A DNA stretch of 64,000 nucleotides from Dyella terrae (GTDB taxonomy: Bacteria; Pseudomonadota; Gammaproteobacteria; Xanthomonadales; Rhodanobacteraceae). The translations under genes and the position numbers were made by a program. Shown piece by piece: positions 52,868 to 57,878 of this stretch (position 1 is its first letter; the number at the start of each line of letters is the position of its first letter). The notes beneath the pieces are model-generated. The model was not told where the DNA came from. It saw nothing but the letters and a program-made list of their open reading frames with translations, and ran no database searches. The stretch is taken from contig NZ_SIZZ01000001.1 in assembly GCF_004322705.1 (NCBI RefSeq), positions 1,612,001-1,676,000 on the forward strand, read 5' to 3'.

Positions 52868-52896
52868 TTGACACCGCGTTGACGCAATGCACAAAT
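52868..52896 (+). promoter_or_regulatory. Candidate sigma-70 promoter for the leader-receptor transcript
   Basis: A perfect -35 TTGACA (52868-52873), 17 bases, then a weak -10 ACAAAT (52891-52896). Predicted transcription starts near 52904, about 50 nt before the first leader peptide. Confidence 0.45.
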
Positions 52897-52955
52897 AGAC
52901 GTCCATTTGCACGCCAGCGCGTGCAGCGCATCTTCCACAGGACTCGACGTTTCCC

Positions 52956-53030
52956 GTGACCATCCAGGGTTTCCAGGCCAACGCACGCACCGCGCATCGC
53001 TTCCACGCGATGTGTTGTTGCTGTTGTTGA
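52956..53030 (+). CDS. Polycysteine leader peptide 1 (ends CCCCC)
   Basis: A 24-residue reading frame from GTG at 52956, ending HAMCCCCC and then TGA. The five Cys codons (TGT TGT TGC TGT TGT) stand immediately before the stop. An ATG at 53010 would give just MCCCCC. AGGA lies 13 bases upstream of the GTG, a long spacing. Five consecutive Cys codons are very unlikely by chance and fit a translational attenuator that stalls when Cys-tRNA is scarce. Sensing of cysteine by such leaders is established for polycysteine uORFs in mycobacteria. The role here is inferred. Confidence 0.6.
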   Translation: MTIQGFQANARTAHRFHAMCCCCC

Positions 53031-53103
53031 TCATCGCCTGACGAAACCCCTGGGGCGCCCGCCCCGCACTCAGCCGCCTCAGCGGCCCGCTGCCGGATCA
53101 CGT

Positions 53104-53193
53104 ATGTCGCTTCGCCTGTCTTCCTTCGCACGCCACACCGCCATGACCGTTCGTAACGGCTCGTGTTGTTGTCGCCTGTGTTGTCGCGGCTGA
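53104..53193 (+). CDS. Cysteine-rich leader peptide 2 (ends CCCRLCCRG)
   Basis: A 29-residue reading frame from ATG at 53104: Arg/Ser-rich start (MSLRLSSFARHTAM), then NGSCCCRLCCRG and TGA. Five Cys codons fall in the last ten. It lies 73 bases after leader 1 and 119 bases before the receptor ATG, on the same strand. The ribosome site is weak (CGGA). The repeat of the same feature in a different frame and sequence strengthens the case that both are functional cysteine sensors for the downstream receptor. Confidence 0.65.
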   Translation: MSLRLSSFARHTAMTVRNGSCCCRLCCRG

Positions 53194-53312
53194 CCCAGCC
53201 CACGTCTTTCGCCGTTCCCCACGGCCATTCCCGGCAGCTCCCCCGCTGCATCACTCACGCTCCGACCTGACCCCGCTCCGGGGCAACGAGCGCACCCATA
53301 ACAAGGCAATCC

Positions 53313-56060
53313 ATGTTCAAGCCAAGCCTGCTCCCGCTGGCCATCGCTGCGTCGTTGGCCGCTTCCCCGTTGTTTGCGCAGGACAATACCGATAGCACCC
53401 CCAAACAGCTCGAAGCCGTCACCGTTACCGGCTCGCGCATTCCACGCGTTGATCTTGAAGGTCCTTCGCCCGTCGTGACGCTCAGCGCGCAGGACATCCA
53501 GGCGCGAGGTTTCCGCAGCGTCTACGATGCCCTCAATTCGCTCACCCAAAACACGGGCATGACGCAGGGCGAAGACTTCGGCAACACGTTCACGCCTGCC
53601 GCTAACACCATCAACCTGCGCGGCCTGGGCCCAAACCACACGCTCGTGCTCGTCAACGGGCGACGCGTGGCCGACTATCCCGTCGCCTATGACGGCTCGG
53701 TCAACTTCGTCAATCTGTCGAACATTCCTGCCGTGATGATCGAGCGAATTGAAGTGCTCTCGGGCGGCGCGTCGTCCGTGTACGGATCCGATGCCATTGC
53801 CGGCGTCGTCAACATCATCCTCAAGAAGAAAGCCGAAGGCGTGGACGTGTCGTTGCGTGCCGGAAGCACGCAAGGGGGCGGCGGAAGCAACCAGCGCCTG
53901 CAGATCGGCGGCGGGCACAGCTGGGGCAAGCTCGATGCGGTATTCGGAGTCGAAGTGACCCATCGCGAACCCATTTGGGGTACGGATCGTCGCTTCATGG
54001 ATTCGCTTTCGCGCGATCCCAGCCTCAACGGCCAACCCACCCTTCCCATAGCCGTCTTCTATCGACGCAACATGCAGACCGGCCAGTACATCGACCCGGG
54101 CGCTGGCACGTGCGAAAACCTCAGCTCGCTCTATGGCGGCACGGTTCGCCGCGCCTACAACCCGCGCCTTGGCTACTACTGCGGCAGCGATCGCGCGCCA
54201 CCGACGTTCTGGACGGTGCAGACCAGGCAGCGCAACGTCAATGCCTACACCGGCCTGCATTACGCGCTGAACGACACGACCGAACTGTTCGGCGATTTCA
54301 TGCTCGGTGTCGACAAGATCGACAACACCACGCGTGCACCGAGCTGGACGTCGCTCGCCGCCAACAACAGCTACTTCATCAACAGCGCCACGGGCACGCC
54401 GGAGCGTTGGTATCGACGTTTCTCGCCTGAAGAAATTGGCGGTCGCACGCAGGCGGGCACGCACTTCTTCGAGCGCGCGTGGAACGCCACGCTGGGCGTG
54501 CGCGGCAGTGTCGGCGATGGCTGGAACTACGAAGCGGCATACAACCGTTCTGAGTACGACAACACCACCACCCGCCGCGCTTTCCTTGCCGGGCTGGATG
54601 ACTATTTCCTCGGCCCGCAAACGGGTACGCAGGGCGGCATCCCGGTGTACTCGCCCAACGCAGCCAGCCTGTATGACCCACTGACGCCTTCGTCGTGGCA
54701 GCAGTTGACTGACACGTACTCGAGCAAAAACAGCGCCTGGGTGCAGACCTTCAGCCTGAGCGTGAACCAGGGCGACCTGTTCAACCTGCCGGGTGGATCG
54801 GCCGGTTTCGCCGGCGTCGTCGAAGCGGGTAGCCAGGGCTATCGCAACACGCCGGATGCCCGCCTCGCGCAAGGCGTGTTCTGGAACAACAACGGCAGCC
54901 TTCCCTCCAGCGGCACGCGTGACCGATACGCCATCGGCGCCGAGCTGAGCCTTCCCCTGCAGGACAGGCTCATCGCCACGCTCGCGGCGCGTTACGACGA
55001 CTATCGCTACGCCGGTCGCAGCGACCACAAGGCCACGTGGAGCGCGGGCCTCGAGTACCGTCCGTTCGATTCGCTGCTTCTGCGCGGCAATTACGCCACC
55101 AGTTTCCGCGCGCCGGACATGAACTACATCTTTGCCAGCGCGACCCATGGCTACATTCCCGGCCTGACCGATGACTACCGGTGCCGCGTTGCCGGCCAGC
55201 CATTCGGCAGCTGCGATTTCGCCAACGAGAGCATCAACTACACCAGCTACGGCAGCAACAAGCTGAAAGCCGAGAACGGCCGCTCGTACAGCTATGGCCT
55301 GGTGTGGTCGCCAAGCCAGCAGCTCGATGTGTCGGTCGACTATTACAACGTGCGCATCGACAACGAGGTGACCAACCTCAGCGCCGATGGCGTGCTTCGC
55401 GATGAAGCCGATTGCCGCCTGGGCCAGACGCAAACCGGCCTCCCCGTCGACATCACGTCGGCCCAGTGCCAGGCCACGCTGGCGCGCGTGCAACGCAATG
55501 CACCGGACGCGGTGGATCCCCTGACGGCGACGCGCATCTTCGTCAATCCGATCAACGCGGCAAGCGAGCGCACCAGCGGCATCGACGCCAGTGGCAACTA
55601 TCGCTGGACGACGATGGACGCGGGTAACTTCGCCGTCCGTGCGAACTACACGCTTGTCCTGACCCACACTTATCAGCAGTTTCCCGGCGGCGTCGTTCTG
55701 GACCTTCGCAATGGCGCGGGCGAAAGCGATTCGGGCAGCACCTTCGAATGGCGCAGCAAATTCAACGCGAGCGTGACCTGGCAATACAAGGCGTTCACGA
55801 CCACGTTGTATGGCATTCGCTACGGCAGCCTCATGAACGCCGACCAGAGCGGTCGCATTGGCCCGTACTTCCGCTACAACGCCAGCGTGGCGTGGCAGAT
55901 GAACGACCGCACGAGCATCGCGCTTACCGTGAACAACCTGCTGAACAAAGCGCCGCCAGCGGACAAGACCGGTAGCGGATGGCCGTTCTACCCGGTTGGA
56001 AATTACGATCCGTACGGTCGCCAATGGTGGATCGAAGCGAGTTATCACTTCGGAAAGTAA
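53313..56060 (+). CDS. TonB-dependent receptor
   Basis: A 915-residue outer-membrane receptor. The signal peptide ends ASPLFA-QD (about 22). The N-terminal TonB-box/plug entry is QLEAVTVTGSRIPRVDLEG, followed by plug motifs INLRGLGPNHTLVLVNGRRVADYP and VLSGGASSVYGSDAIAGVVNIIL. The barrel ends with WWIEASYHFGK. The -VTVTGSRI- type is common in the large receptor sets of xanthomonads, which import peptides, sugars or nucleotides rather than siderophores. Tandem polycysteine leaders upstream suggest control by cysteine supply, so a sulfur-containing peptide or thiol is a reasonable but unproven substrate. The M28-like lipoprotein gene follows 162 bases downstream. Confidence 0.92.
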   Translation: MFKPSLLPLAIAASLAASPLFAQDNTDSTPKQLEAVTVTGSRIPRVDLEGPSPVVTLSAQDIQARGFRSVYDALNSLTQNTGMTQGEDFGNTFTPAANTINLRGLGPNHTLVLVNGRRVADYPVAYDGSVNFVNLSNIPAVMIERIEVLSGGASSVYGSDAIAGVVNIILKKKAEGVDVSLRAGSTQGGGGSNQRLQIGGGHSWGKLDAVFGVEVTHREPIWGTDRRFMDSLSRDPSLNGQPTLPIAVFYRRNMQTGQYIDPGAGTCENLSSLYGGTVRRAYNPRLGYYCGSDRAPPTFWTVQTRQRNVNAYTGLHYALNDTTELFGDFMLGVDKIDNTTRAPSWTSLAANNSYFINSATGTPERWYRRFSPEEIGGRTQAGTHFFERAWNATLGVRGSVGDGWNYEAAYNRSEYDNTTTRRAFLAGLDDYFLGPQTGTQGGIPVYSPNAASLYDPLTPSSWQQLTDTYSSKNSAWVQTFSLSVNQGDLFNLPGGSAGFAGVVEAGSQGYRNTPDARLAQGVFWNNNGSLPSSGTRDRYAIGAELSLPLQDRLIATLAARYDDYRYAGRSDHKATWSAGLEYRPFDSLLLRGNYATSFRAPDMNYIFASATHGYIPGLTDDYRCRVAGQPFGSCDFANESINYTSYGSNKLKAENGRSYSYGLVWSPSQQLDVSVDYYNVRIDNEVTNLSADGVLRDEADCRLGQTQTGLPVDITSAQCQATLARVQRNAPDAVDPLTATRIFVNPINAASERTSGIDASGNYRWTTMDAGNFAVRANYTLVLTHTYQQFPGGVVLDLRNGAGESDSGSTFEWRSKFNASVTWQYKAFTTTLYGIRYGSLMNADQSGRIGPYFRYNASVAWQMNDRTSIALTVNNLLNKAPPADKTGSGWPFYPVGNYDPYGRQWWIEASYHFGK

Positions 56061-56222
56061 GGGCATTGTCAGCCAACGTGCATAGATTTATATGCGCGTT
56101 GGCTGGCTTCGCCGCCCTGATCGACATCAAGAATCCGAGCGATTTTTTCGCAGAATCTTGCGCGTTTTCAGCGACTTCCAGCAACGCTACAGTGTACCCA
56201 TGGTTGTTGACTGGAACAGGGA

Positions 56223-57878
56223 ATGCGTCGGCTGATCGCTTCGCTGGCGATGCTCGGAATGTTGACCGCATGTCAGCATCATCCATCGAGCGTCGCCGAC
56301 AACTCGGAACTCGGGCCCGGCGCCACGACGTTTTCGCCAGGCATCATGGTGAACGATCTGGCCGCGCATGTGCGCGTGCTTTCATCCGAGCCTTATCGCC
56401 ATCGCACGCCCGGCAGCGCCAGCGAACAACGCACGATTGAATACCTGGTGCAGCAGTTTGAGCGCATCGGCGTGGCGCCGGGCAACGGCGACCGCTGGGT
56501 GCAGGATGTCCCGTTCATTGCGAGTACCGTCGACAAGCCGGATCAAGTCACGCTCGATGTCGCCGGTGCGGTGGGCACGCTCTCGCTCGCGTTCGGCAAG
56601 GACATGGTGGTCAACTCCCCTGCCGGCCATGCGCACTCGGAACTGGACGCAGCCTCGCTGGTTTTCGTCGGCTACGGCATCGTCGCGCCTGAGCAGCACT
56701 GGGACGACTATGCCGGCGTCGACGTTCACGGCAAGACGGTCGTTATCCTCGCCAACGACCCGGGTTGGGACAGTAATGACGCCCAGTTGTTTGGCGGCCG
56801 CATTCCCACGACGTATGGCCGCTGGAGCTACAAAGTCGAACAGGCCGCCCTGCATGGTGCGGCGGCGGCCCTGGTCATCCACGATCCGCAGGCGGCTGGC
56901 GTCGGCTGGAACGGGCTGGTGACGCACTGGTCCGGCACGCGTTATTCCGACCCGGGTACCTCCTCGCATCGCACTGCCATTGCCGGCTGGCTGAATGCCG
57001 ATGCGGCGCGCTCGCTGTTCGCCTATGCAGGCATCGACTTCATCAAGGCCACGCAGGCGGCGCATGAGCGCGGCTTCAAGGCCATGAACATTCCGGCTCA
57101 GCTTTCCACGCGCTTTGACAGCACCATCCAGCATGGCGTGTCGCACAACGTGATCGCCAAAGTCGTCGGCAGCAAGAAGCCCGATGAAGCGATCATCTTT
57201 TCGACGCATACGGAAGATGCCGCGTCCAACCCGCACCTGCGTGGGCCGACCGATAGCGCCGCCGGTCTCGGCGGCCTGCTGGAAATGGCCGAAGCTTTCG
57301 CTCACAAGGCACCGAAGGCGCATCGCACCGTGTACTTCATCGCCTTCACCATGGAAGGCTCGGGGCTGCTCGGCTCGCAGTACTACGTCAAGCACCCGGT
57401 GATCTCGCTCGACCACACCATCGCTGACATCAACATGGACGCCCTGCCGACGCTTGGGCCCAGCCGCGATGCCGCCGTCATCGGTTTCGGCAAATCCGAT
57501 CTCGACGATTACTTTGCCGATGCACTGCGCGCGCAGCATCGCCGCCTGACGCCGGCTGACATGGAAGTGCAAGGCGTGTTCTATCGCTCCGACCAGCTGA
57601 GTTTCGCCAGCCATGGCGTGCCCGTGCTTTACGCGCGCTCCGGTCTCGATCTGGTCCAGGGCGGGACGGCCGCCGGGCACAAGCGCTTCGGCGACTATCT
57701 GCGCATGCTCGATGGCGACGCGCCCAACGACGAAGCGCACTGGAATCTCCAGGGCGAAGTCGAGGATCTGCGTGCGCTGTTCATGGTGGGTGGGCGCCTT
57801 TCCATGGAAACGACCTACCCCAAATGGAAAGCCGGCGCGGATTTCGCCCGGCGCCCGACATCACAGGCGACGCAATAA
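56223..57878 (+). CDS. M28-family peptidase-like lipoprotein with degenerate metal site
   Basis: A 551-residue lipoprotein (lipobox LTAC-Q, about 14-18) with a PA-domain insertion (about 100-240) and an M28 peptidase fold. Related peptidases have HxD, a D in xDNAxG, an adjacent Glu-Glu pair in AEEQGLLGS and a YHxPxD His. Here they read His329-Thr-Glu, Asp344 in TDSAAG, and MEGSGLLGS, where Gly379 replaces the second (zinc-ligand) Glu. I find no YHxPxD, only DGDAPNDEAHW. Two zinc ligands therefore seem lost, and the protein may be a non-catalytic binder or have altered chemistry. It lies downstream of the TonB receptor and may handle the imported substrate. Confidence 0.82.
   Translation: MRRLIASLAMLGMLTACQHHPSSVADNSELGPGATTFSPGIMVNDLAAHVRVLSSEPYRHRTPGSASEQRTIEYLVQQFERIGVAPGNGDRWVQDVPFIASTVDKPDQVTLDVAGAVGTLSLAFGKDMVVNSPAGHAHSELDAASLVFVGYGIVAPEQHWDDYAGVDVHGKTVVILANDPGWDSNDAQLFGGRIPTTYGRWSYKVEQAALHGAAAALVIHDPQAAGVGWNGLVTHWSGTRYSDPGTSSHRTAIAGWLNADAARSLFAYAGIDFIKATQAAHERGFKAMNIPAQLSTRFDSTIQHGVSHNVIAKVVGSKKPDEAIIFSTHTEDAASNPHLRGPTDSAAGLGGLLEMAEAFAHKAPKAHRTVYFIAFTMEGSGLLGSQYYVKHPVISLDHTIADINMDALPTLGPSRDAAVIGFGKSDLDDYFADALRAQHRRLTPADMEVQGVFYRSDQLSFASHGVPVLYARSGLDLVQGGTAAGHKRFGDYLRMLDGDAPNDEAHWNLQGEVEDLRALFMVGGRLSMETTYPKWKAGADFARRPTSQATQ

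Follow-up and report, generated by a model that had tools for sequence, protein, structure and literature searches.

The window, i.e. the whole stretch of 64,000 nucleotides that was analysed, comes from a Dyella terrae genome of 4.22 Mb (G000), and the best named matches of its receptor protein are from Dyella. On the plus strand lie, in this order, a promoter-like site, a 5′ stem-loop, leader 1, leader 2, a C-rich spacer and the gene of a TonB-dependent receptor (Table 1). On the other side a rhomboid-like gene on the minus strand points away. A long antisense ORF (53079–56066) overlaps the receptor gene, and we put it down to the high GC content.

Table 1. Features of the receptor locus, with positions counted from the first letter of the window.
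Feature	Position	Strand	Basis or remark
Promoter-like site: TTGACA, 17-base spacer, ACAAAT	52868–52896	+	sequence reading
Single met-box-like octamer AGACGTCC at presumed transcript start	52897–52904	+	box score
5′ stem-loop TGCACGC-loop-GCGTGCA	52908–52925	+	RNAfold
Leader ORF 1, VTIQGFQANARTAHRFHAMCCCCC-stop, GTG start, AGGA at 52939–52942	52956–53030	+	reading, alignment
Predicted RNA hairpin around leader ORF 1, with the Cys codons in its 3′ arm	52962–53055	+	z-score −4.7
Leader ORF 2, MSLRLSSFARHTAMTVRNGSCCCRLCCRG-stop, ATG start	53104–53193	+	reading, alignment
C-rich, G-poor spacer (119 bases, 48% C, 20% G), candidate Rho-loading region	53194–53312	+	
Hairpin GCCGT-TCCCC-ACGGC	53211–53225	+	
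Hairpin GCAGC-TCCCCC-GCTGC	53234–53249	+	
TonB-dependent receptor	53313–56060	+	N-terminal part resembles receptor 1, remainder receptor 2
M28-family peptidase, lipoprotein-like start	56223–57878	+	by reading

A preliminary description of this DNA had pointed to two short poly-Cys frames, 73 bases apart and on the receptor's strand, with a perfect TTGACA upstream. On re-reading the sequence we find both frames as well as the hexamer (52868–52873), but the frames are longer than first given because starts at GTG 52956 and ATG 53104 are possible. Leader ORF 2 begins 73 bases past the stop of leader ORF 1, and the Cys runs of both leaders lie close to the stop codon. TTGACA is found no more than 240 bases 5′ of the Cys codons in all 21 genomes that carry leader 1 (hereafter carriers). 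A sigma-70 scan of the window did not match the promoter-like site, because its −10 element is poor. About 50 bases separate the transcript start, presumed from promoter reading only, from the GTG of leader 1, which AGGA precedes. This GTG start is common to all 17 Dyella-type leaders compared, ten of which came from a search pattern that itself contained GTG. Among the nine relatives that were folded, some also have a predicted 5′ stem-loop.

Runs of Cys codons of this kind are not expected by chance, as had been supposed at the outset. The pattern ATG-(TGY)5 occurs a single time in the genome. Short ORFs with at least five Cys among their last ten residues, two of which make up the finding, are absent from both strands of the 284 remaining 445-base tiles of the window, and among 2000 dinucleotide shuffles of the stretch one gave one such ORF and none gave two. 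The shorter pattern ATG-(TGY)4 is frequent in relatives, with matches in 78/194 genomes, as might be expected if both frames were a chance output of GC-rich DNA containing UGU repeats. The matches examined overlap long frames on either strand, with only those of the Dyella type being leader-like, which makes the pattern a poor leader detector. A few short Cys-tailed frames also occur among these matches (e.g. L092 and L101). The genome-wide pattern count, the tiles and shuffles, and conservation at the same place across 21 genomes rule chance out for practical purposes, and we give it next to no credence.

Conservation was assessed in 233 genomes of the family. An exact pattern matched 11 of them, of which ten have real leaders and one (G032) was rejected after its locus was read. 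A covariance model built from the ten true leaders and run on all 233 genomes (cut-off E < 1e-4) detected leader 1 in 21 genomes, i.e. 11 new ones and the ten in the model. Fourteen rows with E values of 0.001–0.01, from 12 further genomes and two carriers, were left uncounted, and in three weak rows that were inspected the homologous receptor is absent behind the match. Aligning the Cys runs across the receptor upstream regions, a check that the preliminary description had proposed, thus finds them conserved. Leader 1 ends in CCGC in nine genomes, in CCCCC and CCCC in three each, in CCCR in two, and in CCCCCCC, CCRCRR, RCCC and CCRC in one each; the ending MCCGC in 9/21 carriers, with three Cys codons, counts against an explanation by Cys sensing. 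Eighteen codons, counted from the GTG, come ahead of the M of the Cys run in the 17 genomes compared. Leader 1 of G143 is longer and has an ATG start, and three carriers of the neighbouring genus g11 have a shorter frame, which reads M(T)HRP[ML]AMCCC[CR] when begun at the closest ATG. Leader 2 is recognisable in 17/21 carriers (weakly in G020), frequently with the ending ...CCCRCRMCRIG, and no second leader was seen in the three g11 carriers or in G143. The doubling noted for the window is frequent among carriers but not universal.

A core pattern searched across the order matched 19 of 398 genomes, 14 of which are known carriers; the five in another family are attributed to chance. Three of these five matches lie in an open frame that resembles anthranilate synthase, and the other two lie in or near other coding-like sequence; no receptor with a Cys leader was seen behind any of the five. 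Among the receptor 2 homologues retrieved from other genera, none had a leader of the Dyella type within the 4-kb flank by the ORF criteria applied, which counts against the sensing model.

We then compared substitutions in the leaders across 17 genomes. The three majority-Cys columns of leader 1 have pS 0.538 and pN 0.015 (pN/pS 0.03), whereas the ratio is 1.0 outside the Cys columns and 0.68 at other conserved columns; the columns were selected as majority Cys, so pN is biased low, and each Cys codon has few synonymous sites. Conserved non-Cys columns under the same majority rule show no low ratio in leader 1. In leader 2, pN/pS is 0.17 at Cys columns and 0.95 elsewhere. Changes at majority-Cys columns are nearly all swaps between TGT and TGC. 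Codon usage is also distinctive: the window leaders have nine TGT and one TGC, against 2 TGT and 24 TGC in nine window genes, and TGT accounts for 47/75 Cys codons in leader 1 and 57/83 in leader 2 compared with 2/26 in those genes. These patterns indicate that selection maintains the Cys codons of the leaders.

Folding adds a second possible constraint. Leader 1 with its flanks folds far better than dinucleotide shuffles in 7/10 genomes (z ≤ −3.1), the other three having z-scores of −1.55, −0.30 and +0.17. Because the Cys codons sit in the predicted hairpin, part of their conservation in leader 1 may reflect RNA structure. A stronger reading is that the locus encodes a structured RNA element (a riboswitch or a protein-binding leader RNA) and that the poly-Cys frames follow from UGU-rich hairpin strands and are not sensors. 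Besides the folding energies, this would account for C-loop hairpins in the spacer whose stems differ yet pair in 14–15 of the 21 carriers, and for the consensus fold of 19 pairs, four of which have two-sided changes; the covariation term of that fold is small (just −0.38 kcal/mol), and three of the ten folds are not clearly above shuffles. Rfam covariance models gave no match in the window stretch up to E 5 and a single weak one in a relative (Xoo5, E 0.17, at the receptor start), which was dismissed. Two further observations are hard to reconcile with such an element: (i) the Cys columns change almost only synonymously, unlike other conserved columns; and (ii) the receptor-3 leaders of genus g11, described below, differ in sequence but keep a comparable run of Cys in which amino-acid changes are few. 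We therefore regard a structured RNA element as unlikely.

The spacer between leader 2 and the receptor is C-rich in all carriers measured. Its C/G ratio is 1.5–2.8 in these 19/21 (G143 was left out and G009 yielded no receptor start), the value for G193 being that of a shortened spacer whose receptor start was picked too far upstream. Behind 14 receptor-3 leaders the ratio is 1.3–2.0, compared with 0.9–1.3 over the 115 bases upstream of six receptor-3 genes that lack a leader. A CCCC-loop hairpin of at least five pairs is found in 14/21 carriers, and CAGCTCCCC[CT]GCTG in 15/21. No U-tract terminator, as in classical trp/his-type attenuators, was found in the window spacer between leader 2 and the receptor; a terminator scan did list the hairpin of leader 1, which has a UGUUGC tail, as terminator-like, and a T-rich heptamer occurs in 7/19 measured spacers.

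The missing terminator, together with the highly structured spacer, would also suit leaders that act on translation (by re-initiation or by exposing the ribosome-binding site) and not on transcription termination, with cysteine still being the signal. However, the receptor starts 119 bases past the stop of leader 2 with its own AAGG, no hairpin was seen to cover that AAGG site in all folds, and the spacer's C bias is more in keeping with Rho. Control at the level of translation is thus a possibility to be kept in mind, but a rather improbable one.

The tandem C-loop hairpins of the window (53211–53249; CCCC and UCCCCC) look like the C-rich loops that Xanthomonas sX13 presents according to passages of PMC3771888. 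By analogy, and speculatively, a short terminated leader RNA with C-rich loops might, like sX13, target G-rich ribosome-binding sites in trans.

A receptor of family TBDR1 or TBDR2 lies behind the leader in all 21 carriers: receptor 1 followed by receptor 2 in three genomes, receptor 1 in fourteen, and receptor 2 in four, one of them the window. For 12 of those fourteen (all but G123 and G196), the stretches read beyond receptor 1 showed no receptor 2. The leader therefore occurs with either receptor. G009 has a remnant of the receptor-1 start between the leader and receptor 2. In the window receptor, residues 1–40 match receptor 1 at 30/39 positions and receptor 2 at 17/38, whereas residues 41–160 match receptor 2 at 108/120 positions and receptor 1 at 55/119. 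By these matches, the window receptor joins the signal-peptide portion of one receptor to the body of the adjacent one in a natural fusion (53313–53480). Solved relatives matched by the receptors include siderophore, B12, heme and colicin I receptors, with the best stretches mainly in the plug. An M28 peptidase homologue is also found 3′ of the receptor(s) in several carriers. A protein with a sulfite/nitrite reductase domain is encoded in 19/21 carriers, and none was detected in G192 and G203. The carriers are therefore not evident cysteine auxotrophs, and the leaders do not track the loss of sulfate reduction.

We also analysed the regulatory context of these receptors. MetJ (PF01340) is encoded in 22/22 tested genomes of the family, including the window genome (G000:C1:2090606-2090869), and in neither of two genomes of another family in the order. 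This differs from passages of PMC4239095, in which MetJ is assigned to other gammaproteobacterial groups and SamR to the Xanthomonadales genomes analysed there. In the MetJ regulon as described in parts of PMC4239095 and PMC3228920, tandem boxes of the AGACGTCT type precede methionine and sulfur genes, and the genomes studied here share both such boxes before sulfur genes and an encoded MetJ. The sequence RGACGTCYATACRTCY (at most one mismatch) has 10, 11, 21 and 7 matches in four genomes and 1, 0, 1 and 1 in the reversed control, one palindromic site in each of the first two genomes being counted on both strands. Met-box sites lie between a cysB-like gene and cysG, before metX, before the cysteine synthase A gene (cysK) and before several receptor-like genes, two of which were named by reading only; other matches fall inside genes or beside further genes. 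Loci of this regulon include L210, L212, L213, L215, L219, L228 and L229. Taken together, these sites support a predicted sulfur regulon with met-boxes, receptor-like genes among its members, in this MetJ-encoding family.

The leader operon itself is more variable in this respect. With a matrix trained on 14 sites of other loci, box scores at its promoter are at least 15 in 14/21 carriers, 7.3–7.4 in three (including the window) and lower in four; the assessment uses scores alone, as the background windows for p-values contained the site itself. The best score in the window is 7.3 and falls in a shifted register, and of the tandem only the first box is recognisable here, the second having decayed. 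This weak score makes MetJ control of the window operon uncertain. In G192 and G202, a box-like sequence is visible by eye downstream of the scored stretch.

The met-box sites also led to a receptor of an unrelated family (receptor 3) in genus g11, which is preceded by the leader MSLQHAPALHASIALASGASCCCRR. A poly-Cys leader lies before all 15 of its closest g11 orthologues (L241–L255; 82–100% identity), the first of which is from the query's own genome. The leader bodies have diverged, e.g. the TTG-initiated IPQQLTNTHSMAIAPSIAACCCCRTA and the GTG-initiated TTTPLRHHNTPFPPTHPVVAACCCRRTPCCRG. In the 14 leaders tested, pN/pS is 0.08 at the Cys columns and 1.2 at other columns, with pS exceeding 1 at the Cys columns because Cys codons have few synonymous sites. 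TGT makes up 39/53 of the Cys codons. The leader of L254 has two Cys clusters, CCCRRTPCCRG, and closely resembles window leader 2. Upstream of 13/15 orthologues, a count without a formal background, a 16-base site matches AGACGTCTAGACGTCT at 12 or more positions, and in the other two at 11; the nine most distant receptor-3 loci reach only 8–11 positions.

No leader was accepted at the 15 more distant receptor-3 loci scanned. Six genomes with such loci (G000, G062, G068, G081, G123 and G203) have a met-box of 13–15 matches without a leader. The window genome itself has a receptor-3 homologue with a near-perfect tandem met-box and no Cys leader (L238; G000:C2:769200-772300). An upstream frame ending in ACCRCPG-stop within the first 110 bases of L266 is a possible but uncertain leader, and at L258, a locus with no leader, a Cys ORF that overlaps the start of the receptor is regarded as spurious.

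Several known systems resemble these leaders. Poly-cysteine short ORFs of mycobacteria control cysteine-pathway operons. The title of Canestrari et al. 2020, as cited in PMC13236596 and PMC9094748, calls them leaderless and cysteine-responsive attenuators. The shared feature is a very short upstream ORF with a Cys run. Dyella leader 1, by contrast, has a 5′ leader according to the promoter reading and AGGA before its GTG start, and leaders of the Dyella type precede outer-membrane receptors in Gammaproteobacteria, are often paired and stand in a met-box context. The candidate leader peptides of actinobacterial cys operons presented in parts of PMC1262725 have runs of Cys codons near the stop and no conserved terminator hairpin, and Rho was suggested for them. 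The leaders studied here share these properties, but the actinobacterial ones precede the cys operon or cbs and not receptors, and belong to another phylum. What attenuators have in common, namely a brief ORF ahead of the gene in which codons of a single amino acid are repeated, is present in the window as predicted ORFs.

The closest arrangement is that of CruR (DUF2946) in Bordetella, a Cys-containing upstream ORF that precedes the TonB-dependent receptor gene bfrG; according to passages of PMC9426467, it senses copper through CXXC, arrests on RAPP and acts by Rho-dependent termination, which was shown there, across a long spacer with a C-rich region. The window shares the upstream ORF before a TonB-dependent receptor and the long C-rich spacer. 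It is thus conceivable that the Cys-rich nascent peptides bind a metal, e.g. copper, and that the receptor imports a metal complex. The leaders studied here are shorter than CruR, however (11–56 residues), and on reading them neither a RAPP motif nor an evident signal peptide is found. Their Cys form a run of varying length and no fixed CXXC, neither of the window leaders matches an NCBIfam model, and the genomic company of the leaders is sulfur genes with met-boxes. We consider metal sensing very doubtful.

We infer that the leader ORFs most probably sense charged Cys-tRNA and, under cysteine shortage, let RNA polymerase proceed into the receptor gene, likely through Rho. Cys sensing and the link to sulfur draw good support from the sequences, whereas translation of the leaders, ribosome stalling, Rho, MetJ action and the ligand are proposals. 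Sensing of Cys-tRNA with Rho is favoured because of the absent U-tract, the C-rich spacers, the CruR precedent and the actinobacterial cys leaders. According to this model, (i) the mRNA would begin near 52900 and bear the two short leader ORFs with TGT-rich Cys runs; (ii) when charged Cys-tRNA is ample, ribosomes would complete both leaders and depart, and Rho would load on the C-rich spacer and halt transcription ahead of the receptor; and (iii) when cysteine is scarce, a ribosome would stall at the Cys codons and either shield the spacer or block Rho from reaching RNA polymerase, so that the receptor could be made. Placing two leaders one after the other might make the response steeper, or each might come into play at its own degree of starvation. 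The initial proposal that poly-Cys leaders control a sulfur-related receptor thus gains from the conservation in 21/233 genomes, the selection on Cys codons, the receptor-3 leaders and the met-box regulon, but it had overlooked the predicted leader-1 hairpin.

In most relatives, MetJ with SAM would probably add further control at the promoter. A broader view is that a family-wide regulon of outer-membrane receptors is doubly gated, by SAM via MetJ at the promoter and by Cys-tRNA charging via one or two leaders in series through Rho, and that different receptor families acquired the poly-Cys leader on at least two occasions. We offer this view tentatively, as falling somewhat short of an even chance.

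Its M28 peptidase neighbour and the sulfur regulon make a peptide or small molecule that contains sulfur a plausible ligand of the receptor. Most likely, then, import of a sulfur-containing nutrient is the receptor's role; this nutrient may be a peptide that the adjoining M28 peptidase processes.

Among the matches listed in open-licence PMC texts, no cysteine leader peptide before a TonB-dependent receptor was found, and a precedent in print is possible. As predicted from these genomes, the class of poly-Cys leaders is extended to doubled, sulfur-linked leaders of outer-membrane receptors of two families in Gammaproteobacteria. Xanthomonadales-type bacteria have numerous uptake receptors without an assigned ligand. 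If our reading is true, a built-in Cys-codon sensor would mark receptors serving sulfur nutrition, which would make ligand discovery directly testable, and amino-acid attenuation would reach from biosynthesis operons to outer-membrane import, in doubled form and combined with MetJ.
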